Shown here: positions 664-10,715 of the stretch, one piece after another
Position numbering within the stretch: the first letter of the stretch is position 1
Layout of the letters: every line of letters starts with the position of its first letter
From: Nitrososphaerota archaeon
Lineage (GTDB): Archaea > Thermoproteota > Nitrososphaeria > Nitrososphaerales > UBA183
Direction: 5' to 3'
Assembly: GCA_029785685.1 (NCBI GenBank)
Contig: JAFLZE010000031.1
Coordinates: forward strand, 1-10,715
DNA length: 10,715 nt
Notes under the pieces: generated by a model
The model's input: the letters and a program-made list of their open reading frames with translations, nothing else
The model's database searches: none
What the model was told of the DNA's origin: nothing
Translations under genes and position numbers: made by a program

Positions 664-879
664 CCGTAACGACTGAGCGCGCAGAAGTGTGCGTAATGAG
701 ATGGCCACGCGGCTAGCTCGAGATCCCGCAAGGGACACATCGCGTTCCGACGCGATGCGACATGGGCGCAAGCCCGCTCGGGTGTGCCACACAAGAAACG
801 CGGCCATCATACGCCGACCCCACGAGTGCTCGTGGGTGAAGACATAGTCTAACTCCGGGCGTAAGCCTGGGTATAGTTG
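664..879 (+). other. Group I intron, 3' half, in 23S rRNA (site L2500)
   Basis: The last 65 bases fit a group I intron core. A P8-like hairpin (819-825 paired with 830-836, loop GTGC) is followed by TGAAGA (837-842) as J8/7 and CATAGTC (843-849) as the 3' strand of P7, close to the classical AUAAGA-UAUAGUC motif. A P9 hairpin follows (855-860/865-870, GTAA tetraloop), and the terminal omega-G is G879. Exon sequence resumes at C880, matching C2501 of E. coli 23S, so the insertion is after position 2500, a known group I site. Upstream are further stems: 700-706 with 802-808, 724-727/732-735 (GCAA loop), 738-744/751-757 and 764-767/772-775 (GCAA loop). The 5' P7 strand could be GACTG at 671-675, which is not certain. 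No endonuclease gene is seen. Group I introns are documented in archaeal rRNA. Confidence 0.7.
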
Positions 880-1306
<427 letters not shown>

Positions 1307-1342: not shown

Positions 1343-1399
1343 GTGCGGCGAAACTAGCCCTACATGCTGGTAACCCGGGTTCAAATCCCGGCGACCGCA
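1343..1399 (+). other. tRNA-like sequence without a D arm; probable attachment site
   Basis: A perfect T arm is present: CCGGG (1375-1379), loop TTCAAAT, CCCGG (1387-1391). Before it is a five-pair anticodon-type stem (1354-1358 with 1366-1370) enclosing a seven-base loop CCTACAT, then a four-base variable region. Outer ends can pair (GTGCGG 1343-1348 with CCGCAC 1395-1400; as a tRNA acceptor only GCGG 1345-1348 with 1395-1398). Only four or five bases separate the acceptor-like strand from the anticodon stem, so the D arm is missing and position 33 is C rather than U. It cannot be a normal tRNA; the nominal anticodon would be TAC (Val). The 3' half of a tRNA overlapped by an integrase N-terminus is the hallmark of an SSV-type attachment site. 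Confidence 0.6.
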
Positions 1400-3533: not shown

Positions 3534-4025
3534 TTGCCTCTCCCGCCAAAAGACAACATTCGCTTGCCCGTGCTCAAAGTAATCAATGATGCTGGAGGGA
3601 GTCTTCCGATGCGAGATACATTCGAGCGGGTCAAGAAATACTACGACCAACTTACCCCAGACGACATCGCAAGCAGACTAGACTCTGGGGGCAACCGGCT
3701 AAACAACCGAATACAGTGGGCGAGACAAGACCTTGTGCTTTCGGAAGACGTTGAAAGGTCCTCATCCGGTATCTGGAAGATTACAGAGAAAGGGAAGAGG
3801 AGATTGGAAGCTGGATGGTCCTTTTGGAAGCCTGCGTATTACGCGACCCCTGCGAACAAGGGCACGCGGATACAGGTCAAGCACGCGGTCGAACCTGATC
3901 ACGTTACAGACCCGAGAGAAGCTTTGGAATTCGCGCGGCGTGAGCTGGTAGAGCAGGTCCAAGACGAAGTGCTCGAGCGGTTGCATAGCGTTGACCCAAG
4001 CAACTTCGAGAACATAATTGCCTAG
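3534..4025 (+). CDS. mrr: Mrr-family restriction endonuclease, N-terminal part, ended by in-frame TAG
   Basis: The TTG at 3534 starts the typical Mrr N-terminus (MPLPPKDNIRLPVLKVINDA). Residues 1-95 match the Mrr N-terminal winged-helix DNA-recognition domain: paired helices, NRLNNRIQWARQDL recognition region, then SSGIWKITEKGKRRLE. Residues 96-155 are a linker rich in charged helix, and DPSNFENIIA (154-163) is the first helix of the catalytic domain. The frame then meets TAG at 4023-4025 and continues without shift into the rest of the catalytic domain (4026-4421). Mrr enzymes cut modified DNA. Without the downstream part this product would bind DNA but lack the nuclease centre. A TATA-like box 28 bases upstream suggests a leaderless message. 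The TAG stands where families usually have a polar residue, and one base change from CAG would explain it. Confidence 0.85.
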   Translation: MPLPPKDNIRLPVLKVINDAGGSLPMRDTFERVKKYYDQLTPDDIASRLDSGGNRLNNRIQWARQDLVLSEDVERSSSGIWKITEKGKRRLEAGWSFWKPAYYATPANKGTRIQVKHAVEPDHVTDPREALEFARRELVEQVQDEVLERLHSVDPSNFENIIA

Positions 4026-4421
4026 CTACTTGAGACACTGGAGTACGGCAGTATTGTTGATGGAACAATCAAGGTTACCGGAAGGACCGGCGACGGAGGC
4101 ATTGATGGAGAGTGCGCGATGGACAGACTAGGCCTCTACAAAGCGAAGTTTCAGGCAAAAAGATGGAAGAACTCGGTGTCCTCCGGCGAGGTTCGCGATT
4201 TCATAGGAGCATTGACAACTGAACGTGTCGACCAGGGAATCTTCGTGACCACCTCAAGCTTCACGCCCGACGCAGTTACCACAGCGCAGAAGTCTGGCAA
4301 AGTCAAACTCATCGACGGGAAGGAGCTGGCGAGGATGATGGTGGAATCTGGGCAGGGAGTAACGAAGAAGACCTTGGACATCCCTAAGATTGACGAGGAG
4401 TACTTCAGTGGACTGACGTAG
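4026..4421 (+). pseudogene. mrr: Mrr-family restriction endonuclease, catalytic part after the TAG
   Basis: This continues in the same frame as 3534-4025. It contains the complete PD-(D/E)xK centre of the Mrr catalytic domain: GRTGDGGIDG with Asp191 (full-length numbering, TAG as 164), then FQAKRW with Gln207-x-Lys209. After these comes the conserved VRDFIGAL and GIFVTTSSFTPDA stretch and a normal end at TAG 4419-4421. The only available restart, ATG 4119 (residue 196), would leave out Asp191, so a re-initiated product should be inactive. An active enzyme needs readthrough of the TAG or the ancestral codon. Apart from the TAG the sequence is undamaged, so the mutation is recent, or the codon is read through, or it is a sequencing error. 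The end overlaps the next gene by one base. Confidence 0.8.
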
Positions 4422-5062
4422 TGGTGTCATCTACTACATTCGTTGAGCCCCTGAGAAGGCGGATGTTTGAGGTCATGACGTATCTCATCCTTGCCGGCCT
4501 CCCCGTTGCCAGCCTATTGACCAACGGTTTCCAGTTGTCTGCAGAGACGAATGTAGCACTGCTTTTCTTGCTGGCATATACAGTGCTGCTGGTCCTTCCA
4601 ATTAGCAAGTTCAAGTTGGGGCCCTCTGGATTTGAGGGCGACATCGACCGCCTGGTTAAGAATGCCCCCTCGCCACCGCCCTCGCCAACGGCGGCTCCTA
4701 TCACAAGGACCTCTGCTGTACGCTATGAAAATTTGGTGGATCCAAGAAGTGTGTTCCTGCAACTCTCAATTGACATTGAGACAAAGTTGAGAGCGATGGG
4801 AGAGCGTTCGAAAGTTCAGGGTAAACTTCCTCTGGGCAATCTCATTGAACAACTTCGCCGCAGAGAGGTACTCACGGACCCATGGCTTTTGGATGCTCTC
4901 TCGGTGTTCAGGAAGCATAGGAATGCCATTGTACACGAAGGTTCCATGCGAGACATCAATGCAGCTATTGACATTGGTAATACCGTGCTGGTTAAGCTGA
5001 ACGAGATAGAAGGCTCGGGGCCTCAAGGTTCTGTTGTGGTCCGGACTGACAGTCTGGGTTGA
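4421..5062 (+). CDS. Two-helix membrane protein with C-terminal HEPN-like domain (213 aa)
   Basis: The GTG at 4421 overlaps the Mrr stop codon by one base (TAGTG), indicating translational coupling. Two hydrophobic helices (about residues 18-36 and 44-62) anchor the protein, and a Pro/Thr-rich linker (81-100) leads to a helical domain (106-195). That domain carries FRKHRNAIVHEG with Arg167-Asn168 and His172, an RNxxxH arrangement typical of HEPN ribonucleases or of DUF4145-like HEPN relatives. HEPN proteins are frequent toxins and effectors in defence systems. Coupling to a restriction nuclease, plus membrane attachment, suggests a defence effector acting on RNA near the membrane. That is inference from motif and context: many RNxxxH helical proteins have no proven activity. 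The last residues (from about 200) may derive from fusion with flanking integrase debris. Confidence 0.7.
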   Translation: MVSSTTFVEPLRRRMFEVMTYLILAGLPVASLLTNGFQLSAETNVALLFLLAYTVLLVLPISKFKLGPSGFEGDIDRLVKNAPSPPPSPTAAPITRTSAVRYENLVDPRSVFLQLSIDIETKLRAMGERSKVQGKLPLGNLIEQLRRREVLTDPWLLDALSVFRKHRNAIVHEGSMRDINAAIDIGNTVLVKLNEIEGSGPQGSVVVRTDSLG

Positions 5063-5299
5063 TGAGTGCGCGGAGTCCCGCCTGTTCGTACACCTGCTTT
5101 AGCTTGCTTGGCGACAGATCCACGTAGTGCTTCGCAAGAACGCTCCCCGGGGCCCTGCCTGCGAATCAGACGTGCCTCCAGTCTCCCTCAAAACTGGACC
5201 TGGTTGTCCAAACGGGTTGGTTGGAATACGGTTTCACACCGCGACTCTCGAAGCGCCTCTCCGGCACTTTTCATACTCCACCCTTATGTAACCCGCTCC
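5063..5299 (-). pseudogene. Degraded tyrosine recombinase (integrase), C-terminal remnant
   Basis: The minus strand reads GRAPGSVLAKHYVDLSP (5159 downward) followed by SKLKQVYEQAGLRAL, the usual end of archaeal tyrosine recombinases; the Tyr of AKHY is the expected nucleophile. Just upstream in the same frame is VKPYSNQPVW...DWRHV, then an in-frame TGA (5168-5166). Further up another frame gives YIRVEYEKCRR. At least one frameshift and one nonsense change are present, no start exists, and the native stop has been lost at the junction with the HEPN gene at about 5062. It lies on the same strand as the int(N) piece at 1353-1604, with its C-terminus pointing inward. That is the arrangement expected of the int(C) half of a split SSV-type integrase, here truncated by deletion. 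Confidence 0.65.
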
Positions 5300-5322
5300 C
5301 TACCAATCGGTGTCAAGAGGAC

Positions 5323-7155
5323 ATGCGCTTCAGAGCCCACTCTCGAGACGAGCAGCATGTATTCTTCACGTTGGAACTCGTGGGAGCGAGAAGCGTCGGG
5401 ACAGATTTCATAAGTGGCGGTCTAAGAGACTACGCAGCATCGACATCCGGGGGGTATGTCCTGACCGCGAAGGGGGAACACACCACCGACCCAAAGAAGC
5501 TCATCAATTGCATCAGGAAGGAGGTCGAGAGGCTTACGGGCCGGCCCCCGGCGGCGATGCCGCCAGGGCACGCTTCGGGGATCATCGAATTCAGGTTCGA
5601 TGCGAATCTCTCAGAGTCAGAAATCGTCAGCGCCGTCTCATCTGTGATCAGTCAAGCGGAATTACATCGCGAAGAGATCAATCGGGCTGAGCCTCCGCAA
5701 GCGGCCGTCAGAGAGCCTCCGATCGCCGACGATCCCATCCCTACGGAGCGCGTCCATAACGGCATGGAGAGCGAAGGACCCCTGCACTTCCGCCGTGCGA
5801 GGGAATCTAGCCCGAACCAGAGGCGTTCTGGGAGGCGGATGAAGGTACGGAAAGCCTACGTCTATCTGGGCTTGTTGATTGTCACATTCGCACTAGGCCT
5901 TGAATCGACGCCGGGCATGAACCTGGCTGCGCTGGCTCTAATGTCCTTGGTCTTCTCTGCCATGATTTTCGGGTCGTCTTTTGCAATCTTCCGCCTATTG
6001 AAGGGAAACGCCGGCGCCAAAGTAGTCGGGGTTTTCATTCTGCTTATTCTGGCCGGAGCGGCGTATCAGAACCAGGCGGCTCTGAGTGGGCTGACGATAT
6101 CAGGTGTGTTCCAGTCGGGAGAGTCTGCTATCAGTAACCTGGCGTCTTCGTACTCCCCACCGGCACCCTCGAACTGGTTAGTTGCCAACCCCTCCTTCGA
6201 GAACGGAAGCGCCAGGATAGACTACCCGCCAGATTACGGGGCCCTCGCCAACTTCACGCTCGCGCTGATAAACAAGGACAGAGCCTCCGCCGGCGTAGGT
6301 CCGGTGTCGCTGAGCCCCATCCCCTCCGGGCAGCAGCATGCGGACTCATTGGACTATTATGGCACAATCGGCCACTGGGACGTCCAGGGGTACAAGCCGT
6401 ACATGAGATACACACTGCTCGGCGGGACGGGGTACGTTGCCGAGAACGCAGCGTTGGGTTACTGCACCGATTCGGCGCCGTCGTCAACCATGGTCACGCC
6501 CACCCAATGCAACACTCAAACTATCGAGAACGCGCTGAACGGCTCCGAGTACAGCATGATGTACGCAGATGCTACGTGCTGCAACAACGGCCACCGGGAC
6601 AACATCCTCAATCCGTCTCACAACCGGGTCTCAATCGGGATAGCGTACAACTCGACTACCGACGCTGTTTACCTGGTGGAAGACTTCGAAGATTACTACT
6701 TCAACTCGTTCTCGCTCCAGGTGTCTGGCGGTGTGGTTACGCTCCAGGGCTCGACGTCGGAGGACCTCACGGGATGGACGGGGAGCTCGTCAGGCGCCTT
6801 GATTTCCGTCTACTATGATCCTTTGCCAGCCGGCATCCCCACTAGTGAATTGTCATATTCCCCGTCGTGCTCTCAGTTCAACGAGCTCAACGAGCCGCCT
6901 TCATGCCAGTACCAGGGAGCATACAACGCGGGCCAGCAGATCTCCACGGTCTTGGCGCCCTGCCCGGCGGGGTACACGTGCGGATCAGGGAACTTCATCT
7001 ATGCTGAGACCTGGCAAGAAGGCTCAGGGAGCTTCAGAATTGTGTTCTCGTTGAGCGCGCTCGAATCGGCTCATGGGACCGGAGTGTACACCCTGTATCT
7101 ATGGCCAGCGGGAGACTCGGGAGAGCCAATCACTAGCTTGTCGGTTTTTGCTTGA
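5323..7155 (+). CDS. Membrane-anchored CAP/SCP-domain protein (610 aa)
   Basis: ATG 5323 is chosen because AGAGG (5316-5320) precedes it and the conserved-looking sequence begins there; the frame is open back to 5221, but that part is integrase debris. Residues 1-120 form a small alpha/beta domain of unknown type, followed by a charged linker (121-175). Three membrane helices follow at about 177-194, 200-224 and 231-250. The C-terminal half, outside the cell if topology is as drawn, contains a CAP domain (about 303-458). Its expected pocket residues are His351 (GHWD), Glu374 (AENAA), His424 (GHRDNIL) and Glu453 (VEDF). A Cys-containing beta-rich extension follows (461-610). CAP proteins act in cell-surface or lipid-related roles and are expanded in Thaumarchaeota. 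The gene is probably host DNA flanking the decayed element. Confidence 0.85.
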   Translation: MRFRAHSRDEQHVFFTLELVGARSVGTDFISGGLRDYAASTSGGYVLTAKGEHTTDPKKLINCIRKEVERLTGRPPAAMPPGHASGIIEFRFDANLSESEIVSAVSSVISQAELHREEINRAEPPQAAVREPPIADDPIPTERVHNGMESEGPLHFRRARESSPNQRRSGRRMKVRKAYVYLGLLIVTFALGLESTPGMNLAALALMSLVFSAMIFGSSFAIFRLLKGNAGAKVVGVFILLILAGAAYQNQAALSGLTISGVFQSGESAISNLASSYSPPAPSNWLVANPSFENGSARIDYPPDYGALANFTLALINKDRASAGVGPVSLSPIPSGQQHADSLDYYGTIGHWDVQGYKPYMRYTLLGGTGYVAENAALGYCTDSAPSSTMVTPTQCNTQTIENALNGSEYSMMYADATCCNNGHRDNILNPSHNRVSIGIAYNSTTDAVYLVEDFEDYYFNSFSLQVSGGVVTLQGSTSEDLTGWTGSSSGALISVYYDPLPAGIPTSELSYSPSCSQFNELNEPPSCQYQGAYNAGQQISTVLAPCPAGYTCGSGNFIYAETWQEGSGSFRIVFSLSALESAHGTGVYTLYLWPAGDSGEPITSLSVFA

Positions 7156-7274: not shown

Positions 7275-8045
7275 TCATAACAGGCTCAGTTCTTCGAGAG
7301 CTTTCTTCTTCGCGTGCTTGTCCACACCATTGCTTTCAGACCTGAAACGCAGACTAAATTCACCAGAAGTCTTATCGATGATATACGCCCCCGCTCTAGC
7401 TCCCTTCAACTTCTCAATGACTTTCGACTCCGCGTCAGAGACTTGGCCATATTTCTTGCCCGCTTCAAGGATTAACCCTGGGGTCGCTATCAAGTACACT
7501 TCTTCTGAGAACTTATGGAAGTCATCCGCTTGGTTGAGAAAGCGGTCAAATGCGGCTGGATTTGTCTTCGCGTCAAGTGACAGAATCTTGGTGCCTGTCA
7601 GGCCTCTCTTCGCTACTGTGAAGTCCGCGAACCTTACGAACTTGCTACGAACGTTGGAGGTGTCGAAAACCTCTTCGGACTTGTACTTGCTCTTTAAGAA
7701 TCTTAGGATTGCGGGGTAGAGGGTCTTCTCTTCGTCCGCATGACCGAAGACGTAATTGAATTTCTTTCTAGGTAGCTTGATTGAAGCAAGAGTATCCAAG
7801 ATAACTTCTTCCCATCCAAGCTTGTTGAACTTCGGCAACTTTCCAGCGCATTGTTCTGCAAGTGACTTGAGTTGCTTGAGCTTCCCATTCTGTTTGAATT
7901 TCAGATATGCTTTGAACTTCAGATGCGCGTCGGCCGAAGAGAAATAGTCTGCACACAGAGCCTTGTAAGCATCGGCATCGACTCCGAGTTTTGTAATTCG
8001 GTTGGCAATGTCCTCAAACTGCAAGGAAGCGAAATCGAAGCCCAA
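7275..8045 (-). CDS. Putative PD-(D/E)xK-fold protein (256 aa)
   Basis: The start is TTG at 8045: a TGA lies two codons upstream, and a TATA box (8070-8084) sits 28-31 bases before it, fitting leaderless transcription. The N-terminal half (1-100) is helical and lysine-rich (KFKAYLKFKQNGKLKQLK). The C-terminal half has RFADFTV (Asp141), then ILSLDAKTNP (Asp158-Ala-Lys160), then FLNQADDFHKFSEEVYLIATPG. The spacing Asp-x16-Asp-x-Lys with a following Gln-bearing helix is that of a PD-(D/E)xK nuclease core. Sequence outside the motif is not recognised. It could be a restriction-like nuclease or a repair protein, or a nuclease fold used only for binding. The neighbouring genes on the same strand also include a nuclease-like domain, so a defence role is possible. 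It ends convergent with the CAP gene. Confidence 0.7.
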   Translation of the reverse strand: MGFDFASLQFEDIANRITKLGVDADAYKALCADYFSSADAHLKFKAYLKFKQNGKLKQLKSLAEQCAGKLPKFNKLGWEEVILDTLASIKLPRKKFNYVFGHADEEKTLYPAILRFLKSKYKSEEVFDTSNVRSKFVRFADFTVAKRGLTGTKILSLDAKTNPAAFDRFLNQADDFHKFSEEVYLIATPGLILEAGKKYGQVSDAESKVIEKLKGARAGAYIIDKTSGEFSLRFRSESNGVDKHAKKKALEELSLL

Positions 8046-8759: not shown

Positions 8760-10715
8760 CTAGGCTCTCCTGGATTTGATGTACTTGAGGTATATAACGC
8801 CCTTGCCCTCTCTGTACGACCAATGAACCTGCATTGCGATTCCTCCAGCTATTTCTCTTCCAACCTTTTCTTCCAGCATTGCGAGACGTTCCTCGCTCCC
8901 TAGAATAGCTTGGACATCGGCTTCGCCTCTTGCCATGCCCTTGTACGACTCTCGCCAGTGTTTGACCATCACAAGGACAGCTTGTTTGTCTTTCTCGCAG
9001 ATTAAGTCAGGACCCTTCCTCTCAGACACATGCGTTTTGGAGAAAATTGGCTCACCTACTGGCTCCTTTGCTGCTATCTCGAACCCCGATTTCCGAAACA
9101 CAATCTCTGCCACGGACTGCCCGATGTCTCCAATGTGGATTCTCCGTTCGCTTTTGGACGAAGCCATGCGCCAGTACTCCCAGGCAACAGCTTGATTCTG
9201 AGAAGACAAATCAATTTTCACGGTGCTGGTATTGAAATCCAAGGGCCTGTCGATTCTCACTCCAGTCGAATCGATTTCCACCCTGTGCACTTCGAGTGAT
9301 TGGCGCTCGAGTCTGCCAATGGGGACCAGTTTGACATGAGGAAACTTATCGCTCGCGGTCCGTCTATATTCGAACTTGTAGGAGTTTCCTTCGACCCTCA
9401 GGGACTCAACCTGCGAATGGTCTCGCAATCGGAAGTCGAAACTATCCGACGACCTCGCAATCTTCACTTGCCCCACTCCCGCAAGTTCTCCGTCCAGAAC
9501 CGCCTTGCCTTCACGAGACCTGAGCGCGAAGTTGTTGAACTTCAACTGGCCAGTCTCGACCCCCAACGAGAGGCGCCCTTCGTTCTCTATCAGCCGAGTA
9601 GCCTCCATCCCTTTTGGCGGGTTCCCGTTGTACTCTTCTGCGAATGACTTGGGGAGAAGAGGTTCGATCCTCTTGATTCTAACTCCCTCCCCGATTTCAG
9701 CTCCCATATGGCGGAGGTCTAGGTAGGTCTTCTGCTGCCCGGCCATGTGGTTACAATAGATGACATAATCCCTCGCCTGTTCCTTCTCTCTAGTCAGCTT
9801 CACTTCGAACACACCCTCTTTTATGCTGTCAGGAAACTTGGAGCCCGGCACAATCAGCATGGGCGATCCCATGTGCTCCACAACTCGCCGAACCGCATCA
9901 GACTCGCCACCGCGCTCCTGGCGAGAAGGCCTATCCACTCCTTCAGGAGGTGGGCCCCTCCCTTGTTGAATCACCACAAGGCGACTGCCCTCTTGGCTAT
10001 AGCGCACCACCTCGCCGACGGCCTGATTGAGAGGGAGAGGTGTGCTTCCCCTATCCTCAACCACGGCAGTAGCGTTTTCTTTGAAATTCACGTCACGCTC
10101 ACGCACTGATTCGCCAGACCCAGAAAGCGAAACCGCACTCGGGGCGAACACCCCAACTGTTTGCAAACGTTGCAAACCCGGCGTTTCCGCCTGTTCTTCC
10201 CTCTCATGCCCGGGGCTAGCATGCTCGATCACAAGCACCTGGCCGTCGTTTCTGGTGTAACTCTCTGACTGTGATTGGGAAGGCTTGCCCTGTTCGATTA
10301 CAAGTGGCTTCTCCACCTCAGCCTGGGTCCCCGCACCGCTCTCTTGGACGGGCTTGGGTTGCTCGGAATGCTGGGACTCGCCTTCGACAGGTGGATTCTC
10401 GGCGCCGGCTTCTGATCGTCCGTCCTTGACCTCTTCCTCGTCCTTTGCATCAGCTGCCTCGGCCGGGACCTTACCACTCCCTTTCTCCTGACCCTTGGCC
10501 TCCTCCCCTTCTTCGCTCCCCTTGTCAGGGCCATCTACCGTCTTGGTGTCCTCCTTGCCGGGCCCTGCCTCCGCCTGGGCCCCGCCAGCATCCAGCTCGC
10601 CCTTCTCTTGGTCCTTCCCCACCTCGGCCGCTTCGCCCTTCGCATCGACGGCCTTCTCTCCTTCCTCTCCTTTCTCGCGAGCTCCTGCGCCCTTCCCGTC
10701 CTCCTTGCCCGCTAT
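8760..10715 (-). CDS. Large protein with disordered N-terminus and nuclease-like C-terminus (5' end outside window)
   Basis: The frame is open to the window edge. A GTG at 10622 is not convincing as the start, because 31 more codons upstream have the same K/E/G/A composition, so at least 651 residues are visible. Numbering from that GTG, residues 1-100 are low-complexity and charged, certainly disordered. Short motifs LVIEQGKPSQ (107), LVIEHASPGH (130) and VVIQQGRGPP (216) recur in the disordered part. A folded, beta-rich region follows (about 245-535). The C-terminal 84 residues open with GPDLICEKDKQAVLVMVKHW, the layout of a PD-(D/E)xK core (Asp539, Lys554) but with Met where Glu is usual, so catalysis may be lost. 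There is no signal peptide or membrane helix in the visible part. It heads the operon with the 188-aa gene. Confidence 0.75.
   Translation of the reverse strand: MAGKEDGKGAGAREKGEEGEKAVDAKGEAAEVGKDQEKGELDAGGAQAEAGPGKEDTKTVDGPDKGSEEGEEAKGQEKGSGKVPAEAADAKDEEEVKDGRSEAGAENPPVEGESQHSEQPKPVQESGAGTQAEVEKPLVIEQGKPSQSQSESYTRNDGQVLVIEHASPGHEREEQAETPGLQRLQTVGVFAPSAVSLSGSGESVRERDVNFKENATAVVEDRGSTPLPLNQAVGEVVRYSQEGSRLVVIQQGRGPPPEGVDRPSRQERGGESDAVRRVVEHMGSPMLIVPGSKFPDSIKEGVFEVKLTREKEQARDYVIYCNHMAGQQKTYLDLRHMGAEIGEGVRIKRIEPLLPKSFAEEYNGNPPKGMEATRLIENEGRLSLGVETGQLKFNNFALRSREGKAVLDGELAGVGQVKIARSSDSFDFRLRDHSQVESLRVEGNSYKFEYRRTASDKFPHVKLVPIGRLERQSLEVHRVEIDSTGVRIDRPLDFNTSTVKIDLSSQNQAVAWEYWRMASSKSERRIHIGDIGQSVAEIVFRKSGFEIAAKEPVGEPIFSKTHVSERKGPDLICEKDKQAVLVMVKHWRESYKGMARGEADVQAILGSEERLAMLEEKVGREIAGGIAMQVHWSYREGKGVIYLKYIKSRRA

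Follow-up and report, generated by a model that had tools for sequence, protein, structure and literature searches.

Do a restriction nuclease gene and a membrane-protein gene that overlap by a single base make up one defence system? The question is raised by a 10,715-nucleotide contig of a Nitrososphaerota archaeon (JAFLZE010000031.1; the whole stretch is called the window here), in which positions 3534-5062 carry a gene for a type IV restriction endonuclease of the Mrr kind and, directly behind it, one for a membrane-anchored protein with a HEPN-like domain. An earlier note on this DNA had put the two forward as a coupled defence system. On balance, a somewhat likelier reading is that a new membrane-anchored HEPN family lies here next to a type IV restriction gene that has been inactivated, and that the two are neighbours and not a conserved two-part system.

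A membrane-anchored HEPN-like protein

The second gene (4421..5062, forward strand) encodes 213 amino acids between a GTG start and a TGA stop at 5060-5062. A start at 4421 or 4424 is backed by a relative with 65% identity, P0002, which opens with MSSAGFVEPL in register; the database gene call for the window protein (P0001, 199 amino acids) begins 14 residues further in. The protein carries the two membrane helices that the earlier note had described (4445..4594, forward strand). Hydropathy places hydrophobic segments at residues 15-33 and 43-61, and the structure model places helices at residues 9-34 and 41-58. A HEPN (DUF4145-like) helical domain follows at residues 108-198 (4742..5014, forward strand), as delimited by the structure model and by fold and profile comparison. 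Within it stands RNAIVH, an RNxxxH motif at residues 167-172 (4919..4936, forward strand), evident in the sequence and in the family alignment. In PMC3710099 the HEPN motif is defined as Rx4-6H with a polar residue after the arginine, a pattern that RNAIVH fits.

The family to which this protein belongs is rare and unannotated. Searching gathered 11 clusters in a first round and 49 in a second, for which only 7,996 candidates were scored; both counts include the cluster of the window protein. The window's cluster represents 16 contigs and 3 member sequences. Alignment of the window protein with 42 of the 48 others (alignment A4; P0005, P0006, P0007, P0164, P0166 and P0169 excluded) reveals a pair of hydrophobic helices, conservation along a stretch of the type LLVLPI..FKLGPSGFEG and, at the C-terminus, a helical domain that contains HRNELIHEG. 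RNxxxH is present in 47 of the 49 clusters, the exceptions being P0152, with tyrosine in place of the histidine, and the marginal P0169, in which the motif is absent. In 20,000 shuffles of the window protein, the exact motif arises with a frequency of 0.7% and the looser R[NDH]x3-5H with a frequency of 4.0%; RNxxxH rises above chance because the family keeps it.

Comparison of folds and profiles makes the HEPN assignment well supported. When the modelled domain is compared with solved folds, HEPN/HepT-type structures fill rows 1-11, with designed helical bundles close behind, so the protein has the HEPN helical fold and the structural check proposed in the earlier note came out in its favour. 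Against the DUF4145 profile, the family scores 42.9 (probability 94.9%, 73 columns, P 4.4e-8), whereas 150 column shuffles reach 19.4 at most, and it scores 30.5 after the motif columns are masked; the match is not significant when the profile is built from only 4 DUF4145 domains. HepT was tried as the nearest family by sequence and rejected. Its profile scores 17.6 versus a maximum of 18.4 in 150 shuffles, and DUF4145 is preferred because the HepT score does not rise above shuffles. Searches with the window protein give no match in Pfam, PADLOC or NCBIfam at E-values up to 1 or in PHROGs at 0.1, and the protein falls below the cut-off of the Pfam model for DUF4145 (PF13643). Some family members match other Pfam models weakly, namely a HepT-like model (best E 0.0079, 5 of 43 members) and a Mu Gam-like model (best E 0.00062, 10 of 43 members), and these are leads only.

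A HEPN-like domain need not be a ribonuclease (RNase). The domain might instead serve in binding or signalling at the membrane, its motif being retained for structural reasons or to bind nucleotides. RNase activity is a prediction here, and HEPN families that lack the motif exist and are regarded as non-catalytic (PMC3710099). However, the motif is near-invariant across the clusters of this family, and RNase activity is predicted for HEPN domains that keep it (PMC3710099), which makes a non-catalytic module rather unlikely.

An interrupted Mrr gene and its neighbour

The Mrr half of the pair is of an ordinary type IV kind, and its frame is broken in the window. Its first part (3534..4025, forward strand) runs from a TTG start for 163 amino acids to an in-frame TAG and holds the winged-helix type domain Mrr_N (PF14338, E 5.1e-19 in a Pfam scan; PADLOC mREase_IV, E 1.8e-10). 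The start at 3534 matches that of Mrr relatives, which open with M-x-LP. The premature TAG (4023..4025, forward strand) falls between the two Mrr domains, in an alignment column where 25 of 25 relatives carry an amino acid. The frame then continues for 131 residues (4026..4421, forward strand) through the catalytic domain Mrr_cat (PF04471, E 3.8e-27 in a Pfam scan), with the catalytic motifs GDGGIDG at 4089 and QAK (within FQAKRW) at 4149, to a second TAG at 4419-4421 that is the natural C-terminus of relatives. Read through the first stop, the gene matches mREase_IV of PADLOC with an E-value of 1.9e-48. Both Mrr domains are present and in order, but the earlier note had overlooked the break in the frame.

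The lesion would disable the gene in a way that restarting translation could not repair. The first in-frame ATG, GTG or TTG after the premature stop is at 4119, so a complete nuclease by restart is impossible, since GDGGIDG lies upstream. Compared with 6 relatives, the frame beyond the stop shows 78-83% identity and the stretch before it 55-70%. Because the post-stop part is so similar to relatives and its catalytic motifs are in place, the lesion looks recent; the gene would have lost function not long ago through a stop that separates the domain for reading DNA from the one for cutting it.

The second Mrr stop and the HEPN start share one base (TAGTG at 4419-4423; stop at 4419-4421, GTG at 4421-4423), as the earlier note had reported. 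An overlap of this kind is often a sign of co-translation, and it is one reason to consider a true two-gene abortive-infection system whose Mrr component has just been lost. In such a system Mrr would read and cut modified foreign DNA and the HEPN RNase would serve as a second line, possibly set free once Mrr has been engaged or overcome, along the lines proposed for PrrC and its restriction enzyme. Fusions and operons of HEPN domains with restriction endonucleases are described as common (PMC3710099). A fused family member points the same way. P0162 (317 amino acids), the only one in the 49 clusters to exceed 250 amino acids, joins a membrane HEPN protein to an extra C-terminal region (residues about 200-317) that carries PDFVLP..YVIEVKG, by eye like a PD-(D/E)xK nuclease site. 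This link to a nuclease-like tail weighs against a chance neighbourhood. The tail was considered as an Mrr domain and rejected for want of a match; it also gives no significant family match (Phage_endo_I only at E 0.17) and no match to a solved structure.

The pair was not seen again in the collections searched. Co-occurrence was judged by comparing the longest contig of each cluster, a comparison that covered the scored HEPN candidates and the best 120 among 532 relatives of Mrr from a database of 5.8 billion proteins. No longest-contig size is common to the 49 HEPN clusters and the 119 Mrr clusters (120 were listed, one without a size), and the longest contig reaches at least 5 kb in 22 of the former and 56 of the latter. 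The best-scoring Mrr relatives, P0012 and P0013, sit on 50- and 369-kb contigs. The contig of P0013 holds no listed HEPN member, since the contigs given for HEPN clusters reach 181,952 bases at most, and that of P0012 could at most hide in the two HEPN clusters with contigs above its size.

Searches of nucleotide collections agree. Profile searches found no relative of the HEPN family in genome contigs (alignment A1) or viral contigs (A1 and A4), and tblastn with the HEPN protein found nothing in plasmids and phages. The Mrr alignment (A3) found 10 bacterial loci at 29-37% identity in genome contigs and nothing in viral contigs, and Mrr matched 71 plasmid records, each below 60% identity (15 listed), in which the pair was not seen. 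Six genomes of a single family also gave no match, a result without evidential weight. Within 3 kb of Mrr, none of the 10 bacterial loci has a neighbouring gene for a protein with two hydrophobic helices and RNxxxH, in a scan of open reading frames of at least 70 amino acids with the longest non-overlapping ones kept; in three of them (L001, L006 and L010) the DNA ends within about 300 bases past Mrr. One of the 10, L005, harbors at 10111-10741 a soluble HepT-like gene (PF01934) that follows a probable MNT gene; they lie downstream of Mrr at a distance of 1.3-1.9 kb, and a single other gene intervenes. Among the papers listed by a literature search, none was seen to describe an Mrr gene paired with a membrane HEPN gene.

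The coupled Mrr and membrane HEPN system is therefore not supported, because Mrr is interrupted and the pair was not seen elsewhere in what was searched, and a two-gene system that has only just lost its nuclease seems improbable. The earlier note had asked whether other genomes hold the pair side by side. None was found in the collections searched, with the surroundings of the closest HEPN relatives out of reach; P0002, the closest, lies on a 1,156-base contig too short to tell its neighbour. A broader proposal, that rare and undescribed membrane-tethered HEPN RNases are repeatedly teamed with DNA-cutting nucleases, draws on the Mrr adjacency here and on the P0162 fusion and is similarly doubtful. 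If it held, the sensing of foreign DNA close to the membrane would lead to DNA cutting together with RNA decay.

The stop codon and the rest of the window

The inactivation of Mrr depends on a single TAG, which could be an error of sequencing or assembly in a gene that is whole. This lesion is the only one, with no other decay around it. Against an error, the window's HEPN cluster represents 16 contigs, yet none of the best 120 Mrr relatives (of 532) exceeds 75% identity; an error is considered very unlikely. Decoding of TAG as an amino acid, by pyrrolysine or a suppressor transfer RNA (tRNA), would yield full-length Mrr from a frame that is otherwise intact and keeps its catalytic motifs, but such read-through is highly improbable because TAG also terminates Mrr at its natural C-terminus and ends three other long open reading frames of the window (323, 188 and 620 amino acids), and ARAGORN with default settings finds no tRNA in the window.

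Upstream of the pair lies the 3' end of a 23S ribosomal RNA (rRNA) gene (727-1298, forward strand; RF02541, 197.9 bits), aligned well from about 880. Among the ten matches listed of 544, this piece shows 73-75% identity to records from archaea and bacteria alike; its 23S signatures and the look of the genes suggest a probably archaeal source. Ahead of the well-aligned part, at 819-869, is a candidate group I intron tail, which falls short of the gathering score of 50 (23.4 bits, E 0.0035). Introns of group I have been reported from archaea (PMC6125680). Further on, a tRNA-like 3' part without a D-arm (1345-1399, forward strand; 23.4 bits against a gathering score of 29) overlaps an open reading frame on the reverse strand (1101-1604), an arrangement as at an integration site. 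We take the first 88 amino acids of this frame to resemble the N-terminal piece of an archaeal integrase; no relative of the piece was found in phages, plasmids or viral contigs.

Downstream of the pair, a protein encoded at 5221-7155 (forward strand) has hydrophobic segments and a possible CAP (SCP-like) domain, at 20.6 bits versus a Pfam cut-off of 21.1. Two proteins on the reverse strand, at 7275-8045 and 8760-10715, have no family match in Pfam, PADLOC, NCBIfam or PHROGs. By eye both contain strings like a PD-(D/E)xK site, ILSLDAKTN in the former and PDLICEKDKQAVLVMVKHW in the latter, whose N-terminal part is long and of low complexity and whose frame continues past the contig end. A viral origin of the window was considered and rejected, as the 256-, 620- and 323-amino-acid proteins and the 88-residue piece have no match in viral contigs. 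The window contains no direct repeats of at least 18 bases and one inverted pair.

Proposed role and known systems

A role for the HEPN protein can be sketched by likeness to other membrane-attached HEPN proteins (PMC3710099). The two N-terminal helices would anchor a HEPN domain of the DUF4145 type, which most likely faces the cytoplasm. The protein would most likely be a metal-independent RNase with RNxxxH as its predicted active site, kept off until a signal of stress or infection arrives and RNA is cut. The Mrr and HEPN genes may perhaps share a patch of defence genes. Should translation of the HEPN gene depend on Mrr through TAGTG, the premature stop would be expected to lower HEPN expression.

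Parts of this scheme have precedents. Membrane-attached DUF4145-type HEPN proteins and their predicted RNase role have already been described, and it was suggested in 2013 that HEPN proteins attached to the membrane could link a signal there to RNA decay (PMC3710099). To these the present family adds another type of membrane part and, in the single member P0162, a tail that resembles a nuclease. The finding would be of consequence if one of its members turned out to be an RNase with a protective effect against viruses.

Known systems resemble each half of the locus, and each differs from it. Like other Mrr-type restriction endonucleases, the window gene has both domains in order and the catalytic motifs, but a TAG breaks it between Mrr_N and Mrr_cat. 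The DUF4145 family, which is found fused to restriction endonucleases and near restriction-modification genes, shares with the window protein the type of helical domain by profile, a HEPN motif and attachment by membrane helices (PMC3710099). Its membrane subgroup, in contrast, has a single helix and a WP signature (PMC3710099), whereas the window family has two helices and LVLPI..FKLGPSGFEG; the DUF4145 domains aligned carry GNxxxH where the window protein has RNxxxH, and the window protein lacks a Pfam match. HepT of the MNT-HepT system is close in fold, with HepT/HEPN structures as the best matches, and has RNxxxH. The window protein differs from HepT in its membrane helices and in a profile likeness no higher than shuffles, and none of the eight window gene models scanned has an MNT nucleotidyltransferase domain by Pfam, so no MNT gene was seen beside it. 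PrrC with EcoPrrI comes nearest to the logic of the earlier note, in which a restriction enzyme is backed by a second-line HEPN RNase (PMC3710099). PrrC, however, has an ABC ATPase domain and adjoins hsdMSR genes (PMC3710099), whereas in the window a membrane HEPN protein stands beside an interrupted Mrr.
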